From: Streptomyces noursei
GTDB taxonomy: Bacteria > Actinomycetota > Actinomycetes > Streptomycetales > Streptomycetaceae
Length of the DNA: 64,000 nucleotides
Assembly (NCBI RefSeq): GCF_016917755.1
Contig: NZ_CP070326.1
Coordinates: forward strand, 1,054,001 to 1,118,000
Direction of reading: 5' to 3'
Positions 20,823-63,687 of this stretch are shown in pieces; position 1 is the first letter of the stretch; each line of letters begins with the position of its first letter. The notes beneath the pieces are model-generated. The model searched no databases. It had not been told where the DNA came from and worked only from the letters and a program-made list of their open reading frames with translations. The translations under genes were made by a program, and so were the position numbers.

Positions 20823-22313
20823 TCACTCGCCGTGGTAGAGCCTGTCGACGTCTACCAAGAGGACCTCTCCCCTGGCTTCCGCGGCCCGCAGTTCCGGGCC
20901 GAACCCGATCCCGCTGTAACACGCCGGCGTAGCCCCGCTGACGTCCTCGCCGGAAGCTCCGAGGACGGACAGCACGTGGCGCAGCCGTTCCAGGTGTTGG
21001 ATGTCCATGGTCTCGTTCCAGCGGGCGAGTCCGACCGAGAGCAGGACACCGGGCCGCCCCTCGACGTTCCCTCGTACCGCCACGTCGACATCGAGAGGGG
21101 GGTGCCCCGCAGGGCCGGAGACAGTGCCGCGCACGGCCGTCGTGGGTTCCCCTCCGAAGGTGTCGGGGGCGGCGTACTCGGTGGTCCAGTCCCGGCACTG
21201 CTGGGCGAAGTGCGGCGCGGCAACCAAGGAGTCGAACACGGGACGGACGCGTTGCCACACACCGGCGGCGTCCTCCTGCTCGATCAAGGCGCGATGGGGC
21301 CATGCGACGGCGTGCTCGAAGGCCAGTAGCGGCTCGACGATGCGGTAGCGCGTCAGCGCGGGCCGGAACGCGTCGGGCTCTGCGTGCAGGAGACCAGTGT
21401 TCCGCAGCACGGCCAGGGTATGGGACACGTCAGGCAGCTGGGCTCCGACGCATTCGGCGATCCCGCCGGGTGTGGAACGGCCGGCGGCGATCGCGACCAG
21501 CGCGGAGTGGGACAGCGCCCGGTCCGCGTGGTTCTCCTCCTCCTCCAGCAGATTGCGCGCCTCCCAGAACAGGGGGACGCGTGGGTTGAGGACGGTTCTG
21601 CACACCCAGGCGTCGAAGTCATCCGGGCCGGCAGGGGTGTCGTCACACGCAAGGTCGCCTCGATAGGCGGGAGTTCCGCCCACGATGGCATGTACCTGGA
21701 CGGCAAGCCGTGGGGATCGGATGCCCCAGAATCGCGCTGCCTCGCGGAAGTCGAAGGGCTGAATCAGGAGTTCCAGCGAGGCGAGCCGGTGCAGGGAGGA
21801 CGGGCCGGAGAAGAGCCTCCGCATCAGGGATGGAGCCCCTCCGCTGAGGATGAGACGGGCCCGGTTGTGCTGCCGCACCTCGTGCAGACGGCGGTATGCA
21901 CCGTGAATGACGGAGGGCAGTGCCGGGCTGGGGCCCACCAGGTCGGGGAAGTCGTCGATGATCACCGGGGCCGGGCGCTGGTCGCCCAGCGCCAGCAGTG
22001 CGTCCACGGCATCCTCCCAGCGCTGCCAGCGCGGAGGATGCGTCGCCCGGGTGTGCTCCCCGAAACGTTCTGCCAGGCGGTGCAGCGTCTCGGCCTCTGC
22101 TACCGCCTGCCCGTCGAAATAGAAGCCCTCGGCGGCCTTGGCGATGGCTTGCAGCAGGAAGGTCTTGCCCTGCCGGTGCTGTCCCGAGACGAGGCCGAGC
22201 GCGGCTCCAGGGCGCGGATCACTCACGAAGTCAGCCAGAGCGGCCCACTCGACCTCTCGATCGAACACCCGATCGGGTTTCGCCAGGTGGGCGGCAGCAT
22301 CCGATGGCGACAC
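20823..22313 (-). CDS. AAA ATPase with DUF234-like C-terminus (archaeal-type ATPase)
   Basis: 496 residues. It starts with PDRVFDREVEWAALADFVSD, then Walker A GQHRQGKTFLLQAIAKA, Walker B-like PAPVIIDDFPDLV and a sensor region LILSGGAPSLMRRLFSG. The middle is helical with a winged helix (PDVSHTLAVLRNTGLLHAEP), and the end contains GEVLLVDVDRL after a DUF234-type domain with a buried-nuclease look. Such ATPase_2/DUF234 proteins are common in archaea and actinobacteria; some are linked to defence, but none here is characterised. It is divergent from archease and close to RtcB, so a role with RNA repair is possible. Confidence 0.78.
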   Translation of the reverse strand: MSPSDAAAHLAKPDRVFDREVEWAALADFVSDPRPGAALGLVSGQHRQGKTFLLQAIAKAAEGFYFDGQAVAEAETLHRLAERFGEHTRATHPPRWQRWEDAVDALLALGDQRPAPVIIDDFPDLVGPSPALPSVIHGAYRRLHEVRQHNRARLILSGGAPSLMRRLFSGPSSLHRLASLELLIQPFDFREAARFWGIRSPRLAVQVHAIVGGTPAYRGDLACDDTPAGPDDFDAWVCRTVLNPRVPLFWEARNLLEEEENHADRALSHSALVAIAAGRSTPGGIAECVGAQLPDVSHTLAVLRNTGLLHAEPDAFRPALTRYRIVEPLLAFEHAVAWPHRALIEQEDAAGVWQRVRPVFDSLVAAPHFAQQCRDWTTEYAAPDTFGGEPTTAVRGTVSGPAGHPPLDVDVAVRGNVEGRPGVLLSVGLARWNETMDIQHLERLRHVLSVLGASGEDVSGATPACYSGIGFGPELRAAEARGEVLLVDVDRLYHGE

Positions 22314-36397: not shown

Positions 36398-36634
36398 TCA
36401 ACCCCATTGCATCCACTGTTCTACGTCCTCTTCAGTCAGGCCCTGAAGGCGGGCCTGACCCAGCCTCCCCCGCACCCGGTCGAGAGTGATCCGGTAGCTG
36501 TAGATGGTGGCCTCTTCCAGATCTTCAGCCTTCATGGCTAGCCACTGGTCGAGCCACTCATCCACGGTGATCTTGCTAGGCGGTACAAACGCCCTTTCGC
36601 CTCGACGGTGGGTGATGCGCCCACTCTGAGGCAC
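36398..36634 (-). pseudogene. Tyrosine recombinase (integrase), N-terminal fragment
   Basis: The minus frame gives AFVPPSKITVDEWLDQWLAM, KAEDLEEATIYSYRITLDRV and GLTEEDVEQWMQWG then a stop. This is the N-terminal SAM-like arm-binding domain of phage or ICE integrases. The catalytic Arg-His-Tyr domain is missing, so it is a fragment of an old integrating element. No intact integrase, tRNA gene or clear att repeat is seen nearby. The 140 bases to 36777 hold no assigned gene. Confidence 0.72.
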
Positions 36635-36777
36635 CTAAATACTCCAGTCGTAGATCGCGACCTGACGGGGCCGCAAGACGGAGGCACGCTGCCCCGAAGC
36701 CGGCGAAAGGTGGTGGCGGACTGCTGCGTTCGTCTGCGCGCGCTGATGGCGGCGGGCACCGTGGTCTCGCGTGCCGG

Positions 36778-37365
36778 TTACCACACTCTGGGGATGAGGC
36801 GGGGGGTGGTGGCGGCGTAGTCGGTGTAATCGGGGCCGAGATGGTGGATGAGGATGGTGTCTTCGGTACGGATGCGGTACAGCAGTGCAGCCAGGGTGCT
36901 GCCGGTGAGTACCAGCCAGGCGGGGACGTCGTTGAGCGCCGTGGCGGCGCCAGCCACGGCGAGCAGGCCGCCCGCATAGGAGGGGTGGCGCACATACCGG
37001 TAGGGGCCGGTGCGGATGACGGGCTGGTCGTCGCGGACGTCGATGGTGGCGCGGAAGTGGGTGCCGAGGGTGCGTACGGCCCACCAGCGCACGGCGAGGC
37101 CAGCCCATACGGCAGGGAGAGCGACGAGGGCCGCCGTTGCGGGGTCGCCGACCAGGGGCACGGTCGGCCTGCGCCAGGCGAGTGCAACCGCGCCGGCTTC
37201 GCCGAGTACGCCCGTACCGAGCAGGACGAGAGTGCTGCGCCGTTCCGACGCCAACGGCCTGCTGCCGCTCCCTCGTCGTCTGGCCATCCAAGCGGCCTCC
37301 ACCCCGTACCAGGTGGCGCAGGTCAACCCGGCGACAGTCCAGACGCCGACCCGCCAGTTCATCAT
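36778..37365 (-). CDS. Isoprenylcysteine carboxyl methyltransferase-family membrane protein
   Basis: 195 residues, ATG 37365. Membrane spans (LVLLGTGVLGEAGAVALAW, AALVALPAVWAGLAVRWWAV) precede the ICMT/PEMT signature VIRTGPYRYVRHPSYAGGLL, where His and Pro help bind S-adenosylmethionine, and RIRTEDTILIHHLGPDYTDY. Bacterial members methylate unknown lipids, phenolics or proteins at the membrane. It faces away from the GNAT gene. A link to the nearby borosin locus is possible only by proximity. Confidence 0.84.
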   Translation of the reverse strand: MMNWRVGVWTVAGLTCATWYGVEAAWMARRRGSGSRPLASERRSTLVLLGTGVLGEAGAVALAWRRPTVPLVGDPATAALVALPAVWAGLAVRWWAVRTLGTHFRATIDVRDDQPVIRTGPYRYVRHPSYAGGLLAVAGAATALNDVPAWLVLTGSTLAALLYRIRTEDTILIHHLGPDYTDYAATTPRLIPRVW

Positions 37366-37406
37366 CTTTTGTTCCTTTTCATCCTGAATGCGGTTAACGT
37401 TCGATC

Positions 37407-37922
37407 ATGCGCGAGAATCTGCACTGTCGGCCCTTTCGCGAGGAGGACCTGCACCTGCTCGACGGCGTCGCCGAGGACCCCACGGTGCTCGGCCCGTACG
37501 CGTGGACGGGCTTCAGCAGTGGACTGCGTCGCCGCTGGGCGGAAACGGGGCTGCTGACCGACGACGGCGGAGCGCTGGCCGTGGTGGACCAGGGCGAGCC
37601 GGTCGGAGTGGTCTCCTGGCGGAAGGCGGCCTACAACGCCGCCTCTCACGCCTGGAACATCGGGCTGTGCATGCTGCCTGAAGAACGCCGCAGGGGAAGC
37701 GGTGAGCAGGCGGCCCGGTGGCTGGTTCACTACCTGTTCGCGCACACCCAGACCAACCGCCTGGAGGCGCACATCGACGCCGAGAACATTCCGTCGCGCA
37801 TGGGGATCGAGAAGGTCGGCTTCGTCTATGAGGGCATGGCGCGCGGCGCCGCGTTCCGCAACGGGGCCTGGCGGGACGTGTGCCTGTACGGCCTGTTGCG
37901 TGAGGACCTCCGCCCGGCATAA
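37407..37922 (+). CDS. GNAT-family N-acetyltransferase (RimJ/RimL type)
   Basis: 171 residues from ATG 37407. Visible are LHCRPFREEDLHLLDGVAED, GVVSWRKAAYNAASHAWNIG, the acetyl-CoA loop LPEERRRGSGEQAARWLVHY and ENIPSRMGIEKVGFVYEGMA. This matches the RimJ/RimL-like branch of GNAT that acetylates protein N-termini, antibiotics or small amines. The acceptor is unknown. It converges on the borosin-like methyltransferase gene, so they are probably not one operon. Confidence 0.86.
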   Translation: MRENLHCRPFREEDLHLLDGVAEDPTVLGPYAWTGFSSGLRRRWAETGLLTDDGGALAVVDQGEPVGVVSWRKAAYNAASHAWNIGLCMLPEERRRGSGEQAARWLVHYLFAHTQTNRLEAHIDAENIPSRMGIEKVGFVYEGMARGAAFRNGAWRDVCLYGLLREDLRPA

Positions 37923-38015
37923 CCCACGTCCGCGCGGTAATGAGGCGCAGGGCCGCCGCCCACTCGCCTGCGCCCCGTACCAGCAGCGCGGTAGCCGACC
38001 TGCCTGGCTCCCCGG

Positions 38016-38804
38016 TCACACCGGCACGCACAGGCGGGCCGCCATCTCGCGGTCAGGGGGACGGGCGGGCAACGGTGGCACCACGAGCGTGGACTTGTTG
38101 GTCAGCTGCGTATCCGCCAGCTTGGCAAGTGGCACCGGACTGATCCGCGGCGATGTCACCGGGTACGGGGACGCCTCGTACACCACCACCTCGTGATCAA
38201 CGCCGTACGCCCCCGCCAACCGCTCGGCCAGCAGCGCTGCGCCGACGCGCGCGTCGAAATCCGGGTCGCGGTCGGTCATGCCGATCACACCGACCTGCCA
38301 GAGCACGAGCAGGCTGGTGGCGTCGAAGACACGCCGGCGCAGTAGGAAGTCGCTCGCCTCGAAACTCTGGCAACCGCACGTCCCCGGATCCAACCCAAGG
38401 TCGGCGAACAGCCAGTCCTCCGCGGAGGAGCCGGCGAGCATCCGCGCGGGGATCCCTTCCAGCCGTGCTCTGCGCACAGCCTCGTGCCCCGGATAGGCGA
38501 ATACTCCAGGGTGCCCGTAGAAAGCGCAGCACACCAACCGCTCCCGGCGGACCTCGGACAGGATCTCCTGCACCATCTCCTCGTACGTCTCCGACCGGTG
38601 CTTGCCCTTGGCATAGAAGCCCGCCAGCGTGCGCACCGATGGGTTCAGCCGTTCCAGGTAGCCGATGACCATGGGGTCACCGACCAGGCACAGCACCGTA
38701 TCGGCCTGTTCGAGGCAGGCCTTCGCCTCCAGCGTCAGATCGCCGACGGCCCGGTAACCGGTCCCAACGACGATGAGCTCCGCCCTTCCGTTGGTCACAG
38801 TCAC
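38016..38804 (-). CDS. Borosin-type peptide alpha-N-methyltransferase (tetrapyrrole-methylase fold)
   Basis: 262 residues from GTG 38804. The tetrapyrrole-methylase fold starts AELIVVGTGYRAVGDLTLEA and continues ADTVLCLVGDPMVIGYL, VCCAFYGHPGVFAYPGHEAV, ARMLAGSSAEDWLFADLGLD and LLVLWQVGVIGM, the SAM-binding and dimer regions of OphMA-like enzymes. FYAKGKHRSETYEEM contains Tyr64, Arg70 and Tyr74, with the same spacing as the catalytic Tyr66/Arg72/Tyr76 of OphMA. In borosins this enzyme methylates backbone amides of a precursor core. The precursor candidate is encoded 45 bases upstream on the same strand. The C-terminal tail (about 60 residues) has no core peptide, so this is a split, not fused, type. 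Alternative: another TP-methylase acting on a small molecule. Confidence 0.84.
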   Translation of the reverse strand: MTVTNGRAELIVVGTGYRAVGDLTLEAKACLEQADTVLCLVGDPMVIGYLERLNPSVRTLAGFYAKGKHRSETYEEMVQEILSEVRRERLVCCAFYGHPGVFAYPGHEAVRRARLEGIPARMLAGSSAEDWLFADLGLDPGTCGCQSFEASDFLLRRRVFDATSLLVLWQVGVIGMTDRDPDFDARVGAALLAERLAGAYGVDHEVVVYEASPYPVTSPRISPVPLAKLADTQLTNKSTLVVPPLPARPPDREMAARLCVPV

Positions 38805-38849
38805 CGGGCCACCGACCTCTCGATGTTCGAATCCACCGCGTGCCGTCGC

Positions 38850-39089
38850 TCAGTTCTCCTCGTCCGGCGCGTAGATGATGATGACGTGGGCGTCGGGCTG
38901 CTCCTTCACCGAGGTGTGGTTGGCCATCATCGACCGCACCTGCTCCGCATCACCTGACAGCAGCGCCTGCCGCTCCTGCTCCGACAGCCGGGACGCAGCC
39001 AGGTACTGTGCCGGCGCCTCGCTGAACGCGTGCTGCTTGGCAACGTCCGTCGCAAGGTCTTCCATGAACTCCACCACCGCAGGGGACAT
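38850..39089 (-). CDS. Putative split-borosin precursor peptide
   Basis: 79 residues from ATG 39089, with a strong GAGGAGG site upstream. It starts VVEFMEDLATDVAKQHAFSE and continues YLAASRLSEQERQALLSGDA, a helical leader like the Nif11/borosin-binding domain of Shewanella SonA (x-L-x-E-ER-x-L-L-x-GD pattern). The end, DAHVIIIYAPDEEN, is short, beta-branched and hydrophobic with a charged tail, as in SonA-type cores; Val69 to Tyr73 are the most likely N-methylation sites. The methyltransferase gene follows 45 bases later. No protease or transporter is adjacent. The leader alone also resembles LigA/Nif11-type RiPP precursors. Confidence 0.78.
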   Translation of the reverse strand: MSPAVVEFMEDLATDVAKQHAFSEAPAQYLAASRLSEQERQALLSGDAEQVRSMMANHTSVKEQPDAHVIIIYAPDEEN

Positions 39090-39879
39090 GACTCCTCCTC
39101 GGGTTAGGAATGGCTTCGGACACAGCCATTGCACCCCGCGCCCACCCACCCCGCCACCGCAATCCCGTCCCTGACAACACCGTCACCCGAACGGTGCAGC
39201 ATCCTCCTTCCGGTGTGCGGTCGGCACGAACCCGCGCAGGCACTGACGACGCACGTGGTGACCGACCCCGAGGTCCCCGACTCACGAAGTTGCTGCGCGT
39301 GCCGATCCCGGCCGGGGACCGGGTCAGCCCTGGCGGCCCGGGGCGCCGCTCATCAATTGGCGACGTCACCGAGGAAGTCAGGACTCCACTCGGAGTGTGT
39401 GACCGCCCAGGTCACTGGATGTGGGGTGGGCGCCGCGCTCTTCGGGTGCTCCAAGCACCACCGCCAGGTGCCAACGGGCAGGCCGAGCTGTTGCGGATTC
39501 CGTTCGGCATGTGCGGTCAACGTCGCGCGCCTCGGACCAGTTCGTGCGCCGAGAAACCGCGTCGCGGTCACCACACGCGAAGGACGTGCATCTGCGCCGA
39601 GCACGGCCCCGAGTCGCGTCGCGCCTCCGGCCGGCTCGTGTGCCGCCCCTGCATCTCCGGGGATGCCCACACCCCGCCGCGCACACCACAGCGCAGGCAT
39701 GGAGACAGCAAGATGACTGTGGCCCGGCGCGACACGCTTCGGTGCCGCAGGCCGGTCGGGCTCCAGGCGCCCTCCTGCCCTTCGCCGAGGGCGCGCGCAG
39801 GTGCATCAGCGACACGTTCGGCATGATCGAGGCGTTCCTCGTCCTCGCCTCCATAGCCGCCCGCCGGCAGCTGGAGTCC
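39090..39879. other. Unassigned region upstream of the borosin precursor
   Basis: About 790 bases. Long frames on both strands lack recognised domains. The left end should hold the promoter for the precursor/methyltransferase pair. The right end borders an IS3 remnant. No tRNA, terminator or repeat stands out. Confidence 0.45.
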
Positions 39880-40130
39880 ACTGACTCGGCGAGGCATTGT
39901 CGTAGCTTGAGCTGACCCGGCCCAGGCTGCGGCGGATGCCGTGGCGGCGGCAGACCTCAGCGAAGGCAGCCGCGCTGCTTCTCCTCGGCACGGCGCTCGG
40001 CACGGGCCTGAGCGGTGGCCAGATGCCGGTAGGAGCCGGCGCGGGAGACTCCGAGCACGCGAGAGATCCGCTTGACGCCGAAGTCAGCGCGGTTGTTGGA
40101 GATGAAGTCCCAGCAGTGGGGGCTCACTTC
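39880..40130 (-). pseudogene. IS3-family OrfB remnant (internally deleted)
   Basis: Two pieces of an OrfB transposase are seen on the minus strand: NNRADFGVKRISRVLGVSRA and GSYRHLATAQARAERRAEEK from the N-terminus, then FAEVCRRHGIRRSLGRVSSS YDNA-like sequence from near the catalytic end. The DDE core between them is deleted. It follows the orfA at 40124-40462 in IS3 order. Confidence 0.72.
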
Positions 40131-40462
40131 ATCTCCCGGCCACCATAGGCGGCTGACTGACGCAGGATCTCGCGTTCCAGTTGCCCCTCCTTCTCCGCCT
40201 TCAGTAGCCGTGAGTTCTCCACTCGCAGCCGGGCCAGCTCCTCCACCGCGCTCGCCCCGACGTCGCGGCTCTTGGGCGTCGCCGGGTCCTCTTCCTTGCG
40301 GCCCCACGTCCGCAGCGACTCCGCAGTGATGCCGAGATCCGCGGCCACCGCCGCGTACGTACGCCTGCCGGCCGCGGCACGGTAGAGCGCGCCGGCGTCC
40401 TTCCGGAACTCCTCCGGATACGGAGACTTGCGTCCCACCTGGACATCCCCCTGGACCACCAA
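40124..40462 (-). CDS. IS3-family transposase OrfA
   Basis: 112 residues, minus strand. HTH region KSPYPEEFRKDAGALYRAAA and YAAVAADLGITAESLRTWGR, then a Leu/Glu-rich helix ELARLRVENSRLLKAEKEGQ. The end, LEREILRQSAAYGGREMK, is normal for OrfA. Its partner OrfB (39880-40130) is deleted, so the element cannot move by itself. It differs from the IS at 1041, so the two are separate insertions. The 280 bases to 40743 have no assigned gene. Confidence 0.82.
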   Translation of the reverse strand: MVVQGDVQVGRKSPYPEEFRKDAGALYRAAAGRRTYAAVAADLGITAESLRTWGRKEEDPATPKSRDVGASAVEELARLRVENSRLLKAEKEGQLEREILRQSAAYGGREMK

Positions 40463-40743: not shown

Positions 40744-42315
40744 TCAGTTGTGTACCTCGGGGCGGTGCCGGGGCAGTTCCGCCACGAGGCGTGCGCCCTG
40801 GGAGCTGTCCGTGGCCCGTAGCGTACCGCCGTGGCGTACCGCGATTTCGCGGGCGATGGCCAGGCCGAGGCCGGCACCGCCGGTGTGCCGACTGCGGGCG
40901 TCGTCAAGGCGGGTGAAGCGTTCGAAGATGCGCTCCTGGTCGACCGGTGGGATTCCGGGGCCGTCGTCGAGCACGTCGAGGCGGAGCGCGGGGCGACCGT
41001 CGGCGTCGGTGCAGGGGGTGTGGTCGGCGTGCTCGGTGCGCAGGGTGACTTGGACGGTGGTGCGCGCGTAGCGGCAGGCGTTGTCGAGCAGGTTGCGCAG
41101 CAGCCGTTCCAGTTGGAGGGCACTGCCGCGTACGTGGACGGGTCCATCGGCGATGCAACGGATGTCCAGGGGGCGGGAGTGACGCCGATGCTGGTACTCG
41201 GCCACGAGGTCGTGGGCGAGCGCGGTCAGCTCTACGGTGCCGCCATCGGGTGGGGTGGTGGCGTCGAGGCGGGTGAGCAGGAGCAGGTCCTCGCTGAGGT
41301 CCTGGAGTCGGTTGATGTCGGTGAGTGCGCCGCGTACGAGTTCGGGCCAGTCGACGCCGTGGGGGTGGGCCAGGGCCGCTTCGAGACTGGCCCGCAGTGT
41401 GGCGAGGGGGCTGCGCAGTTCGTGGGAGGCATCGGCGACGAAGCGTTGCTGGCGTTCTGCGGCGCTGTGCAGGCGGTCCAGGGTCGCGTTGGTGGAGCGT
41501 GCCAGCTTGGTGATCTCGTCGCCGGAGGTCGGTACGGGGACCCGGCGGTCCAGTGAGTGCGCGGTGATGTCGTCGAGTTCGCGGCGGATCGCGTCGACGG
41601 GGCGCAGCGCGCGGCCGGCGGCGGCCCAGGCGGTGGCGGCGACCAGGAGTCCGACGGCCGGGGTGCCGACGAGGGTGCCCCAGGTCAGCGCGGCGTCGAC
41701 GCTGAACACGGGGTATGAGGTGTTCACGTGGCGCAGCCACAGCAGCGCGAGGAGGACCAGGAGTGCGGCGGTGGCTCCGGCGAGGAGGGCGGAGCCGGTC
41801 CGTAGGGGCAGGCTGCGGCCGGAGGGTCGGGCGAAGCCCCAGGCGGTGGCGCCGGTGATGAGTCCGATGGTCGGGGTACCCAGGCGCAGTCCCCAGTACA
41901 GGGCGGCCTGGGCCGTGTAGTCGGGACGGGTGGCATCGAGGTCCTGGAGCCACAGGCCGTCGGCGAGCAGCAGCAGGGCGGCCGCGGCCCCTGCCGTCAG
42001 GGCGGCGCGCAGGCGCGCCACGGCCTCGACGCCCCTGCCCGCCACCCAGGTCGCGCCGGTCACCAGCACTCCGGTCAGGGGTACGCCCAGCAGCACGGCC
42101 TGGTCGAGCTGGCGGCCGACTCGTTCGGTCTTGAGCCGTTCCACGAGGGTGGCGCCCGGTGGGCCCGCAGCGGCATCGGCGTACTGGAGCCAGGTGATGC
42201 CCGCGCCCAGGGCCAGCACCGCCAGGATTGCGGCGGTCAGCGCCGCCCGGGCCCGTGGCCGGCCGACCGCCCGTCGCATTCGCGCGCTCAGCCGGTCAGC
42301 GGGTGCGCTGGTCAT
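40744..42315 (-). CDS. OmpR-family sensor histidine kinase
   Basis: About 523 residues from ATG 42315 (MTSAPADRLSARMRRAVGR). Several N-terminal membrane spans (ALTAAILAVLALGAGITWLQ and others), a HAMP-like linker (AAAGRALRPVDAIRRELDDI), HisKA with QQRFVADASHELRSPLATLR (His phosphorylated) and HATPase_c with N-box RLLRNLLDNACRYA and G-boxes VLDDGPGIPPVDQERIFERF and GGAGLGLAIAREIA. The start overlaps the upstream response-regulator gene by 20 bases, so they are co-translated. The signal is unknown; the divergent DUF2079 gene may be a target. Confidence 0.9.
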   Translation of the reverse strand: MTSAPADRLSARMRRAVGRPRARAALTAAILAVLALGAGITWLQYADAAAGPPGATLVERLKTERVGRQLDQAVLLGVPLTGVLVTGATWVAGRGVEAVARLRAALTAGAAAALLLLADGLWLQDLDATRPDYTAQAALYWGLRLGTPTIGLITGATAWGFARPSGRSLPLRTGSALLAGATAALLVLLALLWLRHVNTSYPVFSVDAALTWGTLVGTPAVGLLVAATAWAAAGRALRPVDAIRRELDDITAHSLDRRVPVPTSGDEITKLARSTNATLDRLHSAAERQQRFVADASHELRSPLATLRASLEAALAHPHGVDWPELVRGALTDINRLQDLSEDLLLLTRLDATTPPDGGTVELTALAHDLVAEYQHRRHSRPLDIRCIADGPVHVRGSALQLERLLRNLLDNACRYARTTVQVTLRTEHADHTPCTDADGRPALRLDVLDDGPGIPPVDQERIFERFTRLDDARSRHTGGAGLGLAIAREIAVRHGGTLRATDSSQGARLVAELPRHRPEVHN

Positions 42316-42994
42316 GGGAGTGCCCTTGTCCGTTGAGCCGGTAGCCGCTGCCGCGTACGGTCGTGATCGAGGCGCGCCCGTACGGCGCGTCGATCTTGCG
42401 GCGCAGCGCACTCACATACACCTCCACGATGTTCAGATCGCCGTCGAAGTCCGCCGACCAGACCTGCTCGACGATCTCGGTCTTGGTCACCACCTCGCCG
42501 GCCCGCTCGGCCAGGCACTCCAGTACCGCGAACTCCTTGGCCGTCAGCTCGATCCGCGTCGGGCCTCGCCCGCAGGCTCGGCCGGCCGGGTCCAGCCACA
42601 GGTCGCCGACGTACAGAACCGCCTGGCGGCGCGCGCCGCCGCGGCGCAGCAGGGCACGCAGCCGGGCTTCCAGCACCACGTACGAAAACGGTTTGGCCAG
42701 GTAGTCGTCGGCGCCGGTGTCCAGCGCCTCGGCCTCGTCGTACTCGCCGTTCTTGGCTGTGAGCATCAGGATCGGGGTGTCGATGCCCTCCGCGCGCAGC
42801 CGCGCGCACACCCGGTAGCCGTTCAGGCCGGGCAGCATGATGTCGAGCACGATCGCCTGATACGGGTGCTCACGGGCCATGTACAGACCAACACGGCCGT
42901 CGTGCGCCACATCCACGGCGTACCCGGCCGCCTCCAGCCCCCGCTTGAGGGCAGCGGCCAGCCGCTCCTCGTCCTCGATCACCAGCAAGCGCAC
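42296..42994 (-). CDS. OmpR/PhoB-type response regulator
   Basis: 232 residues from GTG 42994. Receiver domain 1-115 with MRLLVIEDEERL, phospho-acceptor Asp in AIVLDIMLPGLNG and Lys in DDYLAKPFS; winged-helix DNA-binding domain 130-220 with ELTAKEFAVLECLAERAGEV and ITTVRGSGYRL. It is paired with the overlapping kinase downstream. The repeated CTTCAG half-sites at 43025-43053, between this gene and DUF2079, are a plausible operator. Confidence 0.92.
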   Translation of the reverse strand: MRLLVIEDEERLAAALKRGLEAAGYAVDVAHDGRVGLYMAREHPYQAIVLDIMLPGLNGYRVCARLRAEGIDTPILMLTAKNGEYDEAEALDTGADDYLAKPFSYVVLEARLRALLRRGGARRQAVLYVGDLWLDPAGRACGRGPTRIELTAKEFAVLECLAERAGEVVTKTEIVEQVWSADFDGDLNIVEVYVSALRRKIDAPYGRASITTVRGSGYRLNGQGHSHDQRTR

Positions 42995-43024
42995 CCCACC
43001 AGTATCACCGGCGACGGCACGCCC

Positions 43025-43053
43025 ATCCTGAAGCGATCTTCAGGATGCTTCAG
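43025..43053. promoter_or_regulatory. Inverted and direct repeats, candidate OmpR-type operator
   Basis: ATCCTGAAG (43025-43033) and CTTCAGGAT (43038-43046) form a perfect inverted repeat. CTTCAG recurs at 43048-43053, a 10-base step from the copy at 43038, as is typical for tandem OmpR-family binding. It lies between the divergent regulator and DUF2079 genes. Confidence 0.55.
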
Positions 43054-43114
43054 CGTCATCTCAGGGAGGTCGGGAGACCCTCGGGGCCCATCCCCCGCTC
43101 CTGTGAGGTGTCCT

Positions 43115-44770
43115 GTGACCACGGCCCCCGCAACAGTCGCCCCGCGGCGCGGTGCTCCGACCGCCCCGGAGCCGGCGCCCGCAGGGTCCCGGCCGGCCGT
43201 GCCGTCCAGGGGCGTCGCCGCCACCGTCGCCGTCGCCGCGTTCGTGATCTACAGTGTGCTCGCGCTGCGCCGGCACGCCCAGTTCCGCACCACCGGTTAC
43301 GACCTGGGCATCTTCGGCCAGGCCGTCCGCTCCTACGCCCAGGGGCACCTGCCCGTCTCCGAGATCCGCGTGGCCACCGGCGGGCCCGGCCTGACAGCGG
43401 ACGGCTTCCCGCTGCTCGGCGACCACTTCCACCCCATCCTCGCGCTGCTGGCCCCGGTGTACCGACTGCTGCCGCACGTCGAAGTCCTGCTCCTCGCACA
43501 GGCAGCGCTGGTGGCCGCCTCGGCATACACACTCACCCGCGCCGCCACCCGCCACCTCGCCCACCTCGGCAGGTGGGCCGCCCCTTGCCTGGGCACCGCC
43601 TACGCGCTGTCCTGGCCGCTCCAGCAACTGATCGGCTTCGACTTCCACGAGGTCGCCTTCGCCGTGCCGCTGCTGGCTCTGGCCCTGACCGCGTTCCTCG
43701 ACGGACGCTGGGTCCGGGCCGCGTGCTGGGCCTCGATCCTCCTCCTGGTCAAGGAAGACATGGGGCTGACCGTGTGTGCCTTCGGCCTTCTCCTCCTGCG
43801 CCGCCACCGGCGAGCCGGAGTCGTGCTGTGCATCCTCGGCCCGACCGCGATGGCTCTGACCGTTTTCGCGATCATCCCGCACTTCAATCCCCAAGGGACG
43901 TACGGCTACTTGACCGCCGAGGCTTCCACCGGTGCAGGGGGCGGCTTGGCGCCGCTGCTCTCCCACGCCTGGGAGGCGGTGCTGCGGCTCTTCACCCCGG
44001 GCACCAAGGCCCTCACCGTGTTCATGATCCTGCTGCCCTCGGCCTTCCTCGCCCTGCGCAGCCCCCTGCTGCTGACCGCCATACCGACGCTCGGCTGGCG
44101 CCTGGCCTCCGACAACCCGGCCTACTGGGGAACGCAATACCACTACTCGGCGGTCCTGGCACCGATCGTCTACGCCGCCTTGATCGACGCCCTGGCACGG
44201 ACCGGGCGGAAACCAGACGGAACACACGCCGTCGCCCTGTCCGACGCACGTGCCCGCACTCCCCTGACGCCGCGTGTCGACTCACGGGCCGCCGCAGTCG
44301 TCCCCGGCCTGGCACTCGCCATCGCCGCCGCGCTCACCTTCGCCTTCCCACTGTCACAGCTGTTCACCCCCCGACTGTGGCAGGACACCCCGCGCACGGC
44401 CGCAGCGCGCGCCGCCTTGGCCCGAATACCGGACGGCGCCCACGTCCTCGCGAGCAACAGCCTCGCTCCCCACCTCACCGACCGGACGACCGTCCACCTC
44501 ACCACCCAAGGCGTCCTCGAACGCCACCTGGACCCGCAGCGGCACCCCGCCGACTGGATCGTCGCCGACACCTCCGACGGCTGGCCCGCCGGTGAGGCCC
44601 GCGCCGTCGTGAACCGAGCCACGGCCGCCGGCTACCACCGCGTCTTCGCGAACCAGGGGTATGTCGTCCTGCGCCGCGCTGATCCGTCTGACGCGCCTGC
44701 CAATCCCCTGTTGAGCACAACGCGGGCCTCGACTGACTCCTGCCGAACCGGTTCAGCGCAGCAACAATGA
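43115..44770 (+). CDS. DUF2079 polytopic membrane protein
   Basis: 551 residues from GTG 43115, GAGGTG upstream. A short cytoplasmic N-terminus is followed by about 10-12 membrane helices, with FRTTGYDLGIFGQAVRSYAQ and GDHFHPILALLAPVYRLLPH, the DUF2079 signature region. DUF2079 proteins look like GT-C-type glycosyltransferases with an extracytoplasmic catalytic loop, but activity is unproven. It is divergent from the OmpR system and preceded by its candidate operator, so it may be that system's target. Confidence 0.86.
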   Translation: MTTAPATVAPRRGAPTAPEPAPAGSRPAVPSRGVAATVAVAAFVIYSVLALRRHAQFRTTGYDLGIFGQAVRSYAQGHLPVSEIRVATGGPGLTADGFPLLGDHFHPILALLAPVYRLLPHVEVLLLAQAALVAASAYTLTRAATRHLAHLGRWAAPCLGTAYALSWPLQQLIGFDFHEVAFAVPLLALALTAFLDGRWVRAACWASILLLVKEDMGLTVCAFGLLLLRRHRRAGVVLCILGPTAMALTVFAIIPHFNPQGTYGYLTAEASTGAGGGLAPLLSHAWEAVLRLFTPGTKALTVFMILLPSAFLALRSPLLLTAIPTLGWRLASDNPAYWGTQYHYSAVLAPIVYAALIDALARTGRKPDGTHAVALSDARARTPLTPRVDSRAAAVVPGLALAIAAALTFAFPLSQLFTPRLWQDTPRTAAARAALARIPDGAHVLASNSLAPHLTDRTTVHLTTQGVLERHLDPQRHPADWIVADTSDGWPAGEARAVVNRATAAGYHRVFANQGYVVLRRADPSDAPANPLLSTTRASTDSCRTGSAQQQ

Positions 44771-50166: not shown

Positions 50167-50649
50167 ATGAGCCTGCTGCGCAAGATCCGTGATACCGGGC
50201 GGGTGGCGGAGCCCGCTCCGCCACGACCCCAGGCCGCACCTCCACCCGCGGCCAGGGATCTGGGTGGCTCCGCGCAGGTGCGCTGTGTGGACGCGGGCTC
50301 GTGCAACGGCTGCGAGATCGAGATCGCGGCGGCCTTCGGGCCGGTGTACGACGCTGAGCGGTATGGCGCCCGGATGGTGGCCTCTCCTCGGCACGCGGAT
50401 GTGGCGCTGGTGACGGGCCCGGTGACGCGGAACATGGCCGAGCCGCTGCGCCGCACGACTGCCGCGATGCCCGAGCCCCGGGTGGTGGTGGCGGTGGGGG
50501 ACTGCGCCGTCAACTGCGGTGAGTTCGCCGGGGCGTATGGGGTCGAGGGGGCGGTCGGCGATGTGGTGCCGGTGGATCTGGAAGTGCGCGGATGCCCGCC
50601 GCGCCCTGAGGAGATCGTTGCGGCGCTGCGCACCGTGACCGGCCGGTGA
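50167..50649 (+). CDS. NuoB/HycG-like 4Fe-4S subunit
   Basis: 160 residues from ATG 50167, AGGAG 6 bases upstream. CVDAGSCNGCEIEIAAAFGP, ALVTGPVTRNMAEPL, GDCAVNCGEF and EVRGCPPRPEEIVAAL supply the four Cys for an N2-type 4Fe-4S cluster in the electron-transfer subunit of Complex I and group 4 hydrogenases. It equals Rv0082 in position. The next gene overlaps by four bases (GTGA), and the downstream genes follow with overlaps or very short gaps, so the cluster is one operon. Confidence 0.9.
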   Translation: MSLLRKIRDTGRVAEPAPPRPQAAPPPAARDLGGSAQVRCVDAGSCNGCEIEIAAAFGPVYDAERYGARMVASPRHADVALVTGPVTRNMAEPLRRTTAAMPEPRVVVAVGDCAVNCGEFAGAYGVEGAVGDVVPVDLEVRGCPPRPEEIVAALRTVTGR

Positions 50650-52679
50650 ACGTGATCGGGCCCGCGCTCGGTGCGGCATCCGCGCTGGCCGGTGCGGGCG
50701 TCGCGGCCGGCATGCTGGTACCGGCATGGGGGCGGTCAGCGGCGGTGGGAGCCTGCACGGCGGGGACGGGGGGCGCCGGACTCGTCGCGGGTGTCGCGGC
50801 GCTGGGCGGTGCGCGGTGGTCGATCGGCCTTCCGGGGTTGCTGCCGCTGGCCGGAGTGCGGCTGGCCGTGGACCCGTTGTCGGGGCTGTTCATGGCGGTA
50901 GCCGGCGCGGTAGCCGCCGCCGTTGCTGTGTACGGGATCGGGTACACGGGGCGGGGTGCGCACGGTGCCTCGTCGCGCGGGGCGCAGGCCGTACTCCCGC
51001 TCTTCGCCCTGACGCTGGTGCTGGTCCCGGCGGCGGCCTCGGTCTCCACGTTCCTGGTGCTGTGGGAGGTCATGGCGCTGGCTTCGCTGCTGCTGGTGCT
51101 GTCTGAACACCGGGAGCGGGCCGAGGTACGGCGCGCCGGGCTCTGGTACGCGGTGATGACGCACCTGGGGCTAGTGCTGCTGCTGGCGGGGCTGGCATTG
51201 TTCGCCGCGCGGGCCGGGGGTCAGAGTTTTGCCGCGCTGCGGGCCGGAGCGGCCGGGATGTCGGCGTGGATTCGCGCGGTCGTGTTCGTGACGGTGGCGG
51301 CGGGGTTCGCCTCGAAGGCGGGCGGGGTCCCGCTGCACGCCTGGCTGCCGCGCGCACACCCCGAAGCCCCCAGCCACGTCTCGGCGTTGATGAGCGCAGC
51401 CATGGTCAACCTCGGGATCTACGGGATCGTGCGAGTGGGCTTCGATCTGCTGGGTGGGGGCCCGATGTGGTGGTGGCTGGGGCTGATCGCGGTCGGCGCG
51501 GTGTCGGCGGTGTACGGGATCTTGCAGGCGGCGATGGCTTCGGACCTCAAGCGGCTGCTGGCGTATTCGACGAGCGAGAATATGGGACTCGTCCTGGTCG
51601 GGGTGGGAGCGGCCGGGCTGTTCGCGGCATCCGGCAACGGACCGCTGGCCGCGCTCGCGCTGGTGGCTGCGCTGCTGCATATGATCAACCACGCGGCGTT
51701 CAAGGCGCTGTTGTTCTGCGCGGCCGGGTCGGTGCTGCGGGCCACGGGGCTGCGGGACCTGGACCGGCTGGGGGGCCTGCGGCAGCGTATGCCGGTGACG
51801 GCCGGGCTGTTCGCGCTGGGGGCGCTGGGGGCGGTGGCGCTGCCGCCGGGGAACGGGTTCATCAGTGAGTGGCTGCTGTTGCAGTCGTTGATCCACGGTC
51901 TGGTGGTGCCGGGGGTGGCCACGGCGATCGTGCTGCCGCTGGCAGTCGCGGTGATCGCGCTGTCGGCCGGGCTGGCGGCAGCGGTGTTCGTCAAGGCACT
52001 GGGGGTGGGATTCTCCGCCCGGCCGCGCAGCAAGCAGGCGGAGCGGGCGGCGGAGAGTCCACCGGCGATGCTTGCGGGGATGGGGTTGCTTGCCGCCTGT
52101 TGCGCGGGACTGGCCCTGGTTCCGGGGGTGTTGGGGAGCGGGTTGGACCGGGCTGCCTCGGCGGCCGGTCTGACGGGCGCCAAGGCGCTGTCCGGCGGTG
52201 GGCTCCAGGTGCGGTTGCAACAGGTGCCGGCCTCGCTGGCGCCGCTGTGGGTGGTCATCGCGCTGACTGCGGCGCTGGCGGTGGCAGCGGGGCTGCCCCG
52301 CCTGATCGGGCGTCGCCGCAGGCGGCGGAAGAATGCCCGGCTGTGGGACTGCGGAGGGGGCGCACCCACCCCGCGCATGGCCTATACGGCCACCTCGTTC
52401 GCCGAGCCCCTGCAGCGGGTCTTCGACGATGTGCTGGCTCCGGAGCAGGACGTGAACGTCACCCCCGTACGCGAATCCGCCTACCTGGTGGAGCGGGTGC
52501 GCTACCAGCGGCGGGTGCCCGACCGGATCGAACACCGCTTGTATGAGCCGATGTTGGCCGCGTTGGCGCGCTTGGGTGGGGCGGCGCGGCGGCTGGCGGG
52601 CGGCAGCGTGCATCTCTATCTCGGCTATGGCTTCTTCGGCTTGGTCGCCCTGTTGCTGGTGTTGGCGGTGGGCTGGTGA
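50646..52679 (+). CDS. Hyf/Hyc-type proton-pumping subunit (NuoL/M-like)
   Basis: 677 residues from GTG 50646. It contains the Mrp/NuoL domain with FASKAGGVPLHAWLPRAHPE, APSHVSALMSAAMVNLGIYG and LLAYSTSENMGLVLVG; the Lys (SKAGGVPLH) is the conserved proton-channel residue. About 14-16 helices. A soluble tail (ARLWDCGGGAPTPRMAYTAT, RYQRRVPDRIEHRLYEP) is typical of HyfB/HycC. It should move protons across the membrane. Homologue of Rv0083. Confidence 0.9.
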   Translation: MNVIGPALGAASALAGAGVAAGMLVPAWGRSAAVGACTAGTGGAGLVAGVAALGGARWSIGLPGLLPLAGVRLAVDPLSGLFMAVAGAVAAAVAVYGIGYTGRGAHGASSRGAQAVLPLFALTLVLVPAAASVSTFLVLWEVMALASLLLVLSEHRERAEVRRAGLWYAVMTHLGLVLLLAGLALFAARAGGQSFAALRAGAAGMSAWIRAVVFVTVAAGFASKAGGVPLHAWLPRAHPEAPSHVSALMSAAMVNLGIYGIVRVGFDLLGGGPMWWWLGLIAVGAVSAVYGILQAAMASDLKRLLAYSTSENMGLVLVGVGAAGLFAASGNGPLAALALVAALLHMINHAAFKALLFCAAGSVLRATGLRDLDRLGGLRQRMPVTAGLFALGALGAVALPPGNGFISEWLLLQSLIHGLVVPGVATAIVLPLAVAVIALSAGLAAAVFVKALGVGFSARPRSKQAERAAESPPAMLAGMGLLAACCAGLALVPGVLGSGLDRAASAAGLTGAKALSGGGLQVRLQQVPASLAPLWVVIALTAALAVAAGLPRLIGRRRRRRKNARLWDCGGGAPTPRMAYTATSFAEPLQRVFDDVLAPEQDVNVTPVRESAYLVERVRYQRRVPDRIEHRLYEPMLAALARLGGAARRLAGGSVHLYLGYGFFGLVALLLVLAVGW

Positions 52680-53629
52680 GCGGGACCGGATTGACTGCGG
52701 TGGCCGCGCAGATCGTCGTGGTCATCAGCGGTGCTCCGTTGTTGGCGGGATGGATGCGGCAGGTGCGGGCGAGGATGGAGGGCCGGGCGGGCGCCGGGGT
52801 CCTGCAGCCATGGCGCGATACGCGCAAGCTGCTGCGCAAGGAGCCCATCACCCCCATCGGCACCGGCCCTGCCTTCCGTACCGCTCCTGCGCTGCTGGTC
52901 GCCACCACGGCCGTAGTGGCTGCGCTGGTGCCGCTGCTGTCCACCACCACACCCGTCAGCGCCCACGCGGACTTGATCCTGGTCGTGGCGCTGCTGGCGC
53001 TGGGCACCGTGGCACTCGCACTGGCGGGGCTGGATTCGGGCACGGCGTTCGGCGGGATGGGCGCGTCCCGGGAGATGACGGTGGCCGCGCTGGTCGAACC
53101 GACCATCCTGGTGGCGGTGTTCGCGTTCTCGATACCGGCCGGGTCGACGAATCTTGCCGCGATCGTGGCCGGCGCGGTCCGTGAGCCGTCCCGGCTGGCC
53201 TCGCCCGCCGGGCTGCTGGCCACCGCGGCGCTGGCGGTGGCGGTGCTGGCGGAGACCGGCCGGATCCCGGTGGACAATCCCGCAACCCACCTGGAGCTGA
53301 CGATGGTCCACGAAGCCATGGTGCTGGAGTACTCAGGTCCCGACCTCGCGCTGGTCGAACTGGGCGCGCAGATGCGGCTGACGGTCCTGCTGGGTCTGCT
53401 GGCCTCGCTGTTCGCACCGTGGGGCATCGCCACCGACGCCTCATGGCCGGCGCTGGCGGTGGCGCTGGCGGCGTTCGTCGTGAAGGTCGCGGTCCTGGGG
53501 GCCGTGTTGGCGGCGGCCGAGGTGTTCTGGGCCAAGGTGAGGCTGTTCAGGGTGCCGGAGCTGCTGGCCGGGTCCTTCCTGCTGGCGCTGCTCGCGGTCA
53601 CCTCCTCGTACTTCCTGAGCGGTGAATGA
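52676..53629 (+). CDS. NuoH/HycD-like membrane subunit
   Basis: 317 residues from GTG 52676. The NuoH family is shown by LLAGWMRQVRARMEGRAGAG (quinone-site loop), LRKEPITPIG, TGRIPVDNPATHLELTMVHE and AMVLEYSGPDLALVE. Eight hydrophobic spans. In Complex I this subunit joins the membrane arm to the peripheral arm. Homologue of Rv0084 (HycD). Overlaps the preceding gene by four bases. Confidence 0.9.
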   Translation: MSGTGLTAVAAQIVVVISGAPLLAGWMRQVRARMEGRAGAGVLQPWRDTRKLLRKEPITPIGTGPAFRTAPALLVATTAVVAALVPLLSTTTPVSAHADLILVVALLALGTVALALAGLDSGTAFGGMGASREMTVAALVEPTILVAVFAFSIPAGSTNLAAIVAGAVREPSRLASPAGLLATAALAVAVLAETGRIPVDNPATHLELTMVHEAMVLEYSGPDLALVELGAQMRLTVLLGLLASLFAPWGIATDASWPALAVALAAFVVKVAVLGAVLAAAEVFWAKVRLFRVPELLAGSFLLALLAVTSSYFLSGE

Positions 53630-54336
53630 GGCCGATGAGCACAGGCACGTACACCCAGCTCCTGGACCTGGCCTGCGGGGCCTTCCTGCTCGCGGCCGTG
53701 GTGGTGTTGTGGCGACGTGAACTGGTCGCGATCGTACGGACCTTCGCCCTGCAGGGCATCGCGCTCGCCGCCATCCCCCTCCTGATCGGGCTGCACGAGC
53801 AACGCTGGGGGCTGATCGCGGTCGCCACCGGGATCGGCGCGCTGCGGGCCGGGTTGCTGCCGTATCTGATGCGCCGGGCGCTGGCCGCCCTGACGCCGTC
53901 GGGGGGCGAGGAGCATCACTACGAGGAGGACGTCAGCGAGGCCCGCGAGACCCAGCCGCTGGTCAACGTCGCTGCCTCCCTGCTCACCGCAGCTGCCCTG
54001 ACCCTGCTCGCCTACGCCGTCGCCCGGCCGCTGGTCGCCCTCAACCCGGGCCCGGCCGCCCGCGCTCTGCCGGTCGGTCTGGCGGTGGTGCTGATCGGCC
54101 TGTTCGTCCTGGCCACCCGGCGCCGGGCGCTGGCCCAGGTGGTGGGCTTCCTGCTGCTGGACAACGGCATCACCGCCACCGCTTTCCTGGCCGCCTCCGG
54201 AGTGCCGCTGATCGTCGAACTCGGCGTTTCCTTCGACGTGTTGCTCGCGGTCCTGGTGCTGCAGATCCTCACCACCCGCATGCGCACGGCCTTCGGCACC
54301 ACCGACATCGACGACCTGCGGGAGCTGCACGACTGA
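53626..54336 (+). CDS. HyfE/HycP-like membrane subunit
   Basis: 236 residues; ATG at 53626 overlaps the upstream stop (ATGA), with a second ATG at 53635. About six to seven helices, for example LLDLACGAFLLAAVVVLWRR and PLVNVAASLLTAAALTLLAY. A conserved LLLDNGITATAFLAASGVPL segment and a C-terminal LTTRMRTAFGTTDIDDLREL-like end match HyfE/HycP. It corresponds to Rv0085. Membrane arm component of unknown individual role. Confidence 0.85.
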   Translation: MRPMSTGTYTQLLDLACGAFLLAAVVVLWRRELVAIVRTFALQGIALAAIPLLIGLHEQRWGLIAVATGIGALRAGLLPYLMRRALAALTPSGGEEHHYEEDVSEARETQPLVNVAASLLTAAALTLLAYAVARPLVALNPGPAARALPVGLAVVLIGLFVLATRRRALAQVVGFLLLDNGITATAFLAASGVPLIVELGVSFDVLLAVLVLQILTTRMRTAFGTTDIDDLRELHD

Positions 54337-55853
54337 TGCCGACATCGCCGAGTTCACTGGGAACGACCGCCTCCGCGCTCATCCTTGCCGTCCCCATCGC
54401 GGTGCCCCTGGCCACCGGCGCCACCTACGCCGCCATCCGGCGGTATGCGCCGACTGACTGGTTGAGCCTGGTCTCACCCGCCGCGATCCTGGCCTCCGGC
54501 GTCGTGCTGGCCCATGCGATGCCCGGCGGCGGTGCGGTCAACGCTTACGGCGGTGTGCTGCGCGCGGACGCGGTGACGGTGTGGATGCTGCTGGTGGTCG
54601 GCGCGGTCGCGGCCGTCGCCTGCGCCGCAGGTCCCGCCTACCTGGCGCACGAGCGTGCCACCGGGCACGCCACACAGGGCACCGCCCGCGCCTACCACCT
54701 GCTCGTGCACGCCTTTCTGGGCGCGATGTGCGCGGCGGTGCTGGCCGGCAACCTCGGGGTGCTGTGGGTGGCCATCGAGGCCACCACCATCGTCACCGCC
54801 TTCCTGGTCGGCCACCGCCGCACCCGCGCATCCGTCGAAGCCGCCTGGAAGTACGTGGTGATCTGCTCGGCCGGGATCGCGCTGGCCTTCCTGGGCATCG
54901 TCCTGCTCTACTACGCGGCACGAGCAGCAGGCATCCCCGAAGCGACCGCCCTGGACTGGCCGACCCTCGTCGCCCACGCAGACCGTCTGGACCCCGCGGT
55001 CACCCGCCTGGGCATCGCGCTGCTGATCCTCGGCTTCGGCGCCAAGGCCGGTCTCGTGCCGCTGCACGCCTGGCTCCCCGACGCCCACAGTCAGGCCCCC
55101 GCTCCCGTATCCGCCCTGATGTCGGGGGTCCTGCTCGCCGTCTCCTTCGCCGCCGTCCTGCGCGGCAAGGTCATCGCGGATGCGGCACTGGGCCCCGGCT
55201 ACGCCCAGACCCTGCTGTCCCTCGCCGCCCTGCTCACCCTGGCCCTGGCCGCGGCCTTGCTGCTCGGCCAGCGCGACTACAAGCGGATGCTGGCGTATTC
55301 GAGCATGGAACACATGAGCCTGATTGCACTCGGTGCCGCCATCGGCACCCCACTCGCGCGAGCCGCCGTGCTCCTGCACATCGCCGGGCACGGGCTGGCC
55401 AAGACCGTGGCCTTCTGCTCCTCGGGCCACATCCTCCACCTGCGGCGCACCACACGGATCGGCCGGGTGCGGGGCCTGCTGGCCCGTGCACCCGGCTTGG
55501 GCGCCGCCTTCGGCCTGGCCGTCGTTGCGCTGCTGGGATTCCCTCCCTTCAGCCTCTTCGCATCCGAACTGGGCATCGTACGAGCCGGATTCACCGCGGG
55601 ATTGGGCTGGCTCACCGCCCTCGCCCTACTCCTGGTGCTGACCGCCTTCGCCGCCCTCGCCCTGCGCACCACCCGGATGTTGCTGGGCCCGCTTCCCCTC
55701 GCGCCGGGCACCCCAGCTGTCCCCGTACGCCTGGGGCCCGCAGCCGGACTGCCGCTCGCCGTAGGGCTGCTGGCCTGCGCCGCCCTGGGGGTATCCGCCG
55801 GGCCGCTGACCGACCTGCTCACCGCCGCCACCACGATCCTTGGAGGGCACTGA
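54336..55853 (+). CDS. HyfF/HycQ-like proton-pumping subunit (NuoN/L-like)
   Basis: 505 residues from ATG 54336 (overlapping the previous TGA). A second Mrp/NuoL-type antiporter domain: GFGAKAGLVPLHAWLPDAHS, QAPAPVSALMSGVLLAVSFA, LLGQRDYKRMLAYSSMEHMS. Conserved Lys in GAKAGLVPLH. About 14 helices, no extra soluble tail. It is the second pump-like subunit in the complex, as in Hyf. Equivalent to Rv0086. Confidence 0.9.
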   Translation: MPTSPSSLGTTASALILAVPIAVPLATGATYAAIRRYAPTDWLSLVSPAAILASGVVLAHAMPGGGAVNAYGGVLRADAVTVWMLLVVGAVAAVACAAGPAYLAHERATGHATQGTARAYHLLVHAFLGAMCAAVLAGNLGVLWVAIEATTIVTAFLVGHRRTRASVEAAWKYVVICSAGIALAFLGIVLLYYAARAAGIPEATALDWPTLVAHADRLDPAVTRLGIALLILGFGAKAGLVPLHAWLPDAHSQAPAPVSALMSGVLLAVSFAAVLRGKVIADAALGPGYAQTLLSLAALLTLALAAALLLGQRDYKRMLAYSSMEHMSLIALGAAIGTPLARAAVLLHIAGHGLAKTVAFCSSGHILHLRRTTRIGRVRGLLARAPGLGAAFGLAVVALLGFPPFSLFASELGIVRAGFTAGLGWLTALALLLVLTAFAALALRTTRMLLGPLPLAPGTPAVPVRLGPAAGLPLAVGLLACAALGVSAGPLTDLLTAATTILGGH

Positions 55854-55856
55854 CCG

Positions 55857-62670: not shown

Positions 62671-63687
62671 TCAGTACTGCTCGGGCCCCTTGAAACCGGT
62701 ACTCACATCGTCATCGGCATCGAAGACGGCGGCAGTCGGGTCGAATCCGGGCGGGCTGTCCCTGAGCGCGAGACCCATCCCGGCCAGCTTCGCCTTGACC
62801 TCGTCGATCGACTTCGCACCGAAGTTGCGGATGTCGAGCAGGTCCGCCTCGGAGCGCGCGACGAGCTCGCCCACGGAGTGGACGCCCTCACGCTTGAGGC
62901 AGTTGTAGGAGCGGACGGTGAGTTCCAGCTCCTCGATCGGCAGCGCCATGTCGGCGGCCAGGGCAACGTCTGTCGGTGACGAGCCCAGGTCGATTCCCTC
63001 GGCCTCGATGTTCAGCTCACGGGCCAGACCGAACAGCTCGACCAGCGTCTTGCCGGCGGAGGCCATGGCATCACGCGGCCGCATTCCTTGCTTGGTCTCG
63101 ATGTCGACGATCAACTTGTCGAAGTCGGTGCGCTGCTCGACACGGGTCGCCTCGACCTTGTACGTGACCTTGAGCACCGGCGAGTAGATGGAGTCGACCG
63201 GGATCCGGCCGATCTCCTGGCCGACCTGCTTGTTCTGCACGGCGGAGACGTAGCCGCGACCGCGCTCGACGGTCAGCTCCATCTCCAGCTTGCCCTTGCC
63301 GTTCAGCGTGGCAAGGACGAGGTCGGGGTTGTGCACCTCGACACCGGCCGGCGGCGCGATGTCGGCGGCGGTGACCAGACCCGGGCCCTGCTTGCGCAGG
63401 TACAGCACGACCGGCTCGTCGTGCTCCGAGGAGACGACCAGCTGCTTGATGTTGAGGACCAGGTCGGTGACGTCCTCCTTGACACCCGGCACGGTGGTGA
63501 ACTCGTGCAGCACGCCGTCGATGCGGATGGACGTGACCGCCGCACCCGGGATCGAGGAGAGCAGGGTGCGGCGGAGGGAGTTGCCGAGGGTGTAGCCGAA
63601 GCCCGGCTCCAGCGGCTCGATCACGAACCGGGAGCGGAACTCGTCGACGACCTCTTCGGTCAGTGACGGACGCTGAGCAATCAGCAC
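62671..63687 (-). CDS. rpoA: RNA polymerase alpha subunit, probably a second copy
   Basis: 338 residues from GTG 63687, GGAGG about 9 bases upstream. The N-terminal domain is complete ([80 protein letters not shown]), as is the CTD ([40 protein letters not shown]). It is nearly canonical Streptomyces RpoA, except for an altered tail ([17 protein letters not shown]). rpoA normally lies between rpsD and rplQ; neither is here, so it is probably an extra paralogue. Alternative: relocated sole copy. Confidence 0.93.

Follow-up and report, generated by a model that had tools for sequence, protein, structure and literature searches.

The window analysed here is a 64,000-nucleotide stretch of the Streptomyces noursei genome (contig NZ_CP070326.1, positions 1,054,001 to 1,118,000), within which a compact group of four genes combines a predicted split borosin pair, i.e., a precursor peptide and a separate backbone N-methyltransferase, with two further enzyme genes. 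The precursor gene (38850..39089, minus strand) encodes 79 amino acids and lies 45 nt upstream of the methyltransferase gene (38016..38804, minus strand, GTG start), which encodes 262 amino acids; both are as described in an initial annotation made from the sequence alone. Adjacent to the pair are a gene for a GNAT-family acetyltransferase of 171 amino acids (37407..37922, plus strand), a putative peptide N-acetyltransferase, and a gene for an ICMT-family (PF04140) methyltransferase of 195 amino acids (36778..37365, minus strand), a putative carboxyl methyltransferase. These two form a divergent pair of their own and co-occur with the borosin pair in other genomes.

The borosin methyltransferase and its precursor

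Residues 9-247 of the 262 in the methyltransferase align with solved SonM (E 4.8e-56 to 4.9e-56), and the match to OphMA has E ~1e-46; all 25 PDB matches of the enzyme at E≤0.01 are to borosin-type enzymes. It is a discrete protein, homologous to SonM and OphMA without a fused core or clasp. Residues Y64, R70, and Y74 fall opposite Y58, R67, and Y71 of SonM, as counted on the alignment, and their spacing of six and four equals that of OphMA Y66, R72, and Y76, with OphMA numbering taken from PDB entry titles rather than from an alignment. The proposal that the enzyme keeps this triad at the OphMA spacing was thus borne out. Mutants of the three SonM residues are described as having strongly lowered activity or only traces of it (PMC8429565). 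The triad is intact in 110 of the best 120 homologues among 3239 found.

The precursor contains ERQALLSGDAEQ and ends in HVIIIYAPDEEN. Its leader spans approximately residues 1-58 (38916-39089, minus strand) and its hydrophobic tail approximately residues 68-79 (38853-38888, minus strand). The start codon, ATG, is preceded by the Shine-Dalgarno sequence GAGGAGGA (39093..39100, minus strand), which is conserved in the alignment of four upstream regions from as many genomes. Across seven related precursors, mean identity is 79% in the leader and 27% in the tail; judged from these sequences, a conserved leader with a variable tail is the pattern of a ribosomally synthesized and post-translationally modified peptide (RiPP). 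A leader profile searched against the PDB returned SonA as its sole match at E≤1 (best E 0.051), and 47 of the 48 Foldseek matches of the leader model were SonA or OphMA-type chains, each single score being weak. The leader is a candidate for a borosin binding domain, which is a five-helix bundle. The precursor adjoins the enzyme in all four close loci (the window and three of three relatives), and its ratio of nonsynonymous to synonymous substitution rates (dN/dS) is 0.31-0.60 in all six genome pairs; the pairing is therefore more than chance. No further precursor copy was supported in the window's own genome, where the next match has an E value of 0.8. The assignment as a split (type IV) borosin pair is well supported by the homology and active-site residues of the enzyme, by the division of the precursor into leader and core and, weakly, by the fold of the leader; methylation itself is predicted.

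Among more distant homologues the picture is less uniform, and the following results weigh against this assignment. A close-leader profile run on 497 small open reading frames (ORFs) from 11 loci, some of them overlapping, gave a single candidate below E 0.01, located on the other strand of a Nitrososphaera locus (L005:9322-9546, E 0.0054), and distant Streptomyces homologues had no statistically supported precursor alongside in this leader-profile search. The initial annotation had regarded methylases lacking a neighboring precursor as evidence against the pair: the close loci all carry one, whereas the distant loci yielded one candidate from 11, and for distant homologues the objection may therefore apply.

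In Streptomyces G327, the open frame of a borosin-type methyltransferase with 44% identity continues into a tail similar to the leader of the precursor (L024:9995-11050; 31% identity and E 0.011 for the tail) and soon ends, so that the enzyme is fused to a leader with hardly any core. Streptomyces G401 carries three consecutive borosin-type methyltransferase domains of 43-46% identity, the first two in one ORF (L023:10356-13545), with no supported precursor nearby according to the leader profile. An Aeromonadales metagenome-assembled genome has a 107-aa ORF just downstream of its methyltransferase (L006:8848-9171), which by eye shows a helical leader followed by CMIMPAEDDEE, recalling IIIYAPDEEN of the window; the leader profile gave no match to this ORF.

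The GNAT and ICMT-family proteins

The GNAT protein exceeds the Pfam cut-offs of Acetyltransf_3 (54.8 vs. 25.4 bits) and Acetyltransf_1 (38.2 vs. 20.7 bits). Its best NCBIfam match, a weak one, is to aminoglycoside 6'-N-acetyltransferase (31.9 of the required 250 bits), and the best Foldseek matches of its model include the aminoglycoside acetyltransferase AAC(6')-Im and polyamine acetyltransferases, while by sequence and fold it is also close to RimJ/RimL-type protein N-terminal acetyltransferases. With 517 Foldseek matches at E≤0.001, the fold is uninformative as to substrate class.

The ICMT-family protein lies above the cut-off of PF04140 (60.7 vs. 24 bits) and below that of the NCBIfam protein-S-isoprenylcysteine O-methyltransferase (ICMT) equivalog (63.8 vs. 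160 bits), and we therefore assign it to the family without calling it an ICMT. Its residues 78-194 align with a solved ICMT (E 2.3e-10), and RHPxYxG is kept in all six aligned rows. Hydropathy indicated about three segments, a measure judged too crude to use. ICMT enzymes methyl-esterify a C-terminal carboxylate; for this protein, a lipid or a different carboxylate is an equally plausible substrate.

A conserved block of four genes

The surroundings of the close enzyme were read in Streptomyces sp. BHT-5-2, S. halobius, and S. smyrnaeus DSM 42105, covering ~18 kb on either side, with the window's predicted genes as tblastn queries (E≤1e-8). Together with the window, this makes four of four genomes in which a 2.4-kb block holds the ICMT-family, GNAT, borosin enzyme, and precursor genes, and order and orientation are kept in all three of the others; the search for the same pair elsewhere, proposed as a check, was thus successful. 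The only other synteny match was to the gene at 20823-22268, a partial one (48% identity, 102 of 481 aa) at a distance of ~4 kb from the block in S. halobius; at the DNA level this genome has two further short matches to the window (68-69%). Shared DNA similarity begins at the ICMT stop codon (window position 36775 for two genomes, 36791 for the other one) and stops at 39110, 39198 or, past a gap, 39663, so that the block spans 36775..39198 in BHT-5-2 and S. halobius and 36791-39110, in two pieces, in S. smyrnaeus. The borosin pair is one half of this conserved block, which reaches down to 36775. All four genes are under purifying selection (dN/dS 0.16-0.60 in all six pairs). The initial annotation had pointed to a locus lacking protease and transporter genes, which holds for the conserved block but overlooked the conserved GNAT and ICMT-family genes.

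The distribution of the block is narrow. In an even draw of 392 Streptomyces genomes from a larger group, with at most 6-9 candidates per genome scored, the enzyme was found at E≤1e-15 in nine genomes, four at 80-100% identity (window included) and five at 33-46%. The GNAT was found at E≤1e-40 in 23 genomes, four at 72-100%, all of them cassette genomes, and 19 at ≤51%; the ICMT-family protein was found at E≤1e-30 in five genomes, four at 70-100%, again those with the cassette, and two further copies at 41-42% occur in BHT-5-2 and in G199. Among the 392 genomes, close GNAT and ICMT orthologues are hence confined to the four that carry the close enzyme. The four are related, and the co-occurrence counts are therefore not independent events. 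Wider draws added little: among 345 genomes across the class, an enzyme match at E≤1e-25 came from the window's own genome only; 180 genomes around S. smyrnaeus gave four matches, none new; and 61 relatives gave three at E≤0.001, one of them the window's own genome. Further Streptomyces enzymes exist at 66-83% identity, and the context count takes in S. smyrnaeus among these.

Location and surroundings of the block

Genes of mobile elements flank the block as context outside the pathway. A phage-integrase N-terminal domain fragment (36398..36634, minus strand; PF14659, E 1.5e-5) lies to its left and a transposase gene of the HTH_Tnp_1 family (40124..40462, minus strand; PF01527, E 2e-6) to its right. 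An IS4/5-type gene of S. halobius has its end ~158 bp from the block, and BHT-5-2 has a DDE-type gene at a distance of ~3.1 kb; of two ORFs examined close to the S. smyrnaeus block, neither matched a Pfam family. The BHT-5-2 block resides on a 2.8-Mb replicon recorded as plasmid p1, whereas the kinase genes of the window's right flank (40756-44685) have their 90% identical counterparts on the 6.3-Mb replicon, where no cassette gene was found in the 60 kb read around them. Because these lie on different replicons, the block has changed place. Recent horizontal transfer was considered and dropped despite the transposase and integrase genes near the block in the window, S. halobius, and BHT-5-2: synonymous divergence (dS) of the borosin enzyme between the window and BHT-5-2, S. 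halobius, and S. smyrnaeus (0.11, 0.46, and 0.86) ranks like that of rpoB (0.06, 0.12, and 0.29), and we therefore claim relocation and not recent transfer.

In the window the block is surrounded by genes for universal stress proteins, CBS/BON, hemerythrin, and Hsp20 proteins, and a GAF histidine kinase, and by formate dehydrogenase-like and Nuo/hydrogenase-4-like genes. The description of this setting as a hypoxia-like island is apt insofar as stress genes are present, but the ~18 kb read to either side of the other three cassette loci holds none of the window's stress genes, and no OsdR-like site lies near the pair. The window holds one match of 14/16 to the published OsdR consensus (4654-4669; 0.0 expected from five Markov simulations), whereas the best match in the cassette region (36640-39700) is 10/16, by simple matching rather than the published matrix. 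Some OsdR targets are reported to lack the consensus (PMC5069765), and regulation of the cassette by OsdR is for this reason unlikely rather than excluded. After the synteny comparison and the consensus scan we dropped the link to a stress regulon; the island is merely where this copy of the cassette sits.

Other features of the island are noted in passing. About 0.6 kb separates the OsdR-like box at 4654-4669 from a downstream gene for a universal stress protein (3193-4035, minus strand). All three RpoA domains are present in the product of a gene for an RNA polymerase alpha subunit at 62671-63687. A NuoE/F-like and formate-dehydrogenase-alpha pair (16143-20533) and a NuoB/hydrogenase-4-like membrane module (50287-57374), 30 kb apart, are perhaps two halves of one respiratory complex.

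A proposed pathway and its alternatives

We propose, at a probability of about 0.68, that the four-gene cassette makes a backbone N-methylated peptide of the split borosin type that is finished by the two further enzymes. The leader of the precursor, predicted to be helical, would bind to the SonM-like enzyme, and the latter would methylate backbone amides of the hydrophobic tail (VIIIY) iteratively, dependent on S-adenosylmethionine and through Tyr64, Arg70, and Tyr74, presumably proceeding from N to C as in characterized borosins. A host protease encoded elsewhere would then cut off the leader; the conserved block holds no protease gene, and several RiPPs are described as relying on proteases of the host whose genes lie apart from the RiPP clusters (PMC10885120). 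The amino terminus set free in this way would be acetylated by the GNAT, in the manner of GodH, which performs such an N-acetylation in the Streptomyces RiPP goadsporin (PMC5303826). Finally, the enzyme of the ICMT family would convert a carboxylate, probably that of the C-terminus, into its methyl ester. The capped, N-methylated hydrophobic peptide could pass membranes without a dedicated transporter. Every chemical step and the order of steps is what we infer from the genes, the two capping roles included; SonM-type chemistry on the tail, as predicted from the homology, is the firm part. A more far-reaching version, which we regard as speculative, is that the cassette represents a borosin sub-class without a protease or transporter gene of its own, whose peptides would carry backbone N-methyl groups, a GNAT-derived N-acetyl group, and an ICMT-type C-terminal methyl ester, would thus be fully capped and membrane-crossing, and for which the ICMT-type membrane enzyme may be both last step and release point.

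Alternatively, the borosin pair alone might make the peptide, with the GNAT serving the producer's self-protection through an acetylation that inactivates the product and the ICMT-family enzyme perhaps acting on a lipid or another small molecule. GNATs often inactivate toxic compounds, and this explanation draws on the Foldseek matches to AAC(6')-Im and polyamine acetyltransferases, the weak NCBIfam aminoglycoside match, and the separate divergent arrangement of the two genes; we nevertheless consider it rather unlikely, as the GNAT is also near RimJ/RimL-type protein N-terminal acetyltransferases and immunity by acetylation leaves the ICMT-family gene unexplained. Less probable still is that both genes are passengers that share the block with an ordinary split borosin pair. 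With only four genomes and a divergence order like that of rpoB, shared descent without function could produce the same picture, but the four genes stay together amid differing surroundings, all are under purifying selection, and in BHT-5-2 a different replicon carries them from the one with the genes of the window's right flank.

The initial annotation had raised a cellular role for the methylated peptide itself, which as an explanation would mean that the precursor serves the hypoxia or stress response of the island. The stress and respiratory genes around this copy and the single OsdR-like box at 4654 speak for such a role, but the pair occurs elsewhere in different surroundings, the other three cassettes have no window stress genes alongside, and consensus matches within 36640-39700 do not exceed 10/16, so that the role is unsupported by the setting and in our estimate very improbable. 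We attach hardly any weight to the enzyme being an ordinary tetrapyrrole or YabN-type methylase next to an incidental small ORF. Pfam does assign it to TP_methylase, and YabN is its best NCBIfam match; however, that match scores 42.6 bits against a cut-off of 525, the PDB matches are uniformly borosin-type, and the ORF is kept at every close locus. The proposed four-gene pathway remains our preferred explanation.

Novelty and relation to known systems

To our knowledge, the mature product is known for few bacterial borosins, and the finishing and release of these peptides are largely open. If the proposed pathway is correct, this minimal natural cassette would provide candidate enzymes for capping N-methylated peptides, which are wanted for cell-permeable peptide drugs; at the same time, a tempting link between borosins and the hypoxia response of Streptomyces is removed as unsupported. 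The statement that few split bacterial pathways are characterized is fair, yet methylation in a split borosin of Streptomyces sp. NRRL S-118 is described as confirmed by liquid chromatography-tandem mass spectrometry in 2021 (PMC8429565). As type IV borosins were validated in that year, the pair itself belongs to a known kind; as far as the literature was searched, the new part is the conserved association of ICMT-family and GNAT genes with a split borosin. A partial search found neither an ICMT-family enzyme in a borosin pathway or in RiPPs generally nor an on-topic report linking a borosin precursor with an acetyltransferase, and an earlier description of the cassette is possible. Further borosin types have been defined (PMC11285071, PMC11395268). 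Dmxorosin is reported to be a lanthipeptide and was set aside (PMC11855644).

OphMA and dbOphMA share with the present system a homologous methyltransferase, a putatively homologous clasp/leader domain, and the same Tyr/Arg spacing, but there leader and core lie within the enzyme chain. GodH corresponds to the model proposed here in that a GNAT acetylates the N-terminus freed by leader removal; the RiPP class differs, and the likeness is one of proposed role rather than of compared GNATs. SonM/SonA, described as the type IV split borosin of Shewanella oneidensis (PMC8429565), was compared by the genes of the pair and not by neighborhood, the pair's neighbors here being the GNAT and then the ICMT-family gene. 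The two systems share a discrete methyltransferase of nearly equal length (262 aa here vs. 263 aa) with the same Tyr/Arg/Tyr residues and a separate short precursor with a hydrophobic tail and a leader that is putatively helical here, whereas the leader of the window is only distantly related (best E 0.05-0.5) and its tail starts a few residues later. Compared by description rather than by sequence, the split borosin of NRRL S-118 resembles the present pair in coming from the same genus and in combining a 263-aa enzyme with a precursor of ~75 residues.
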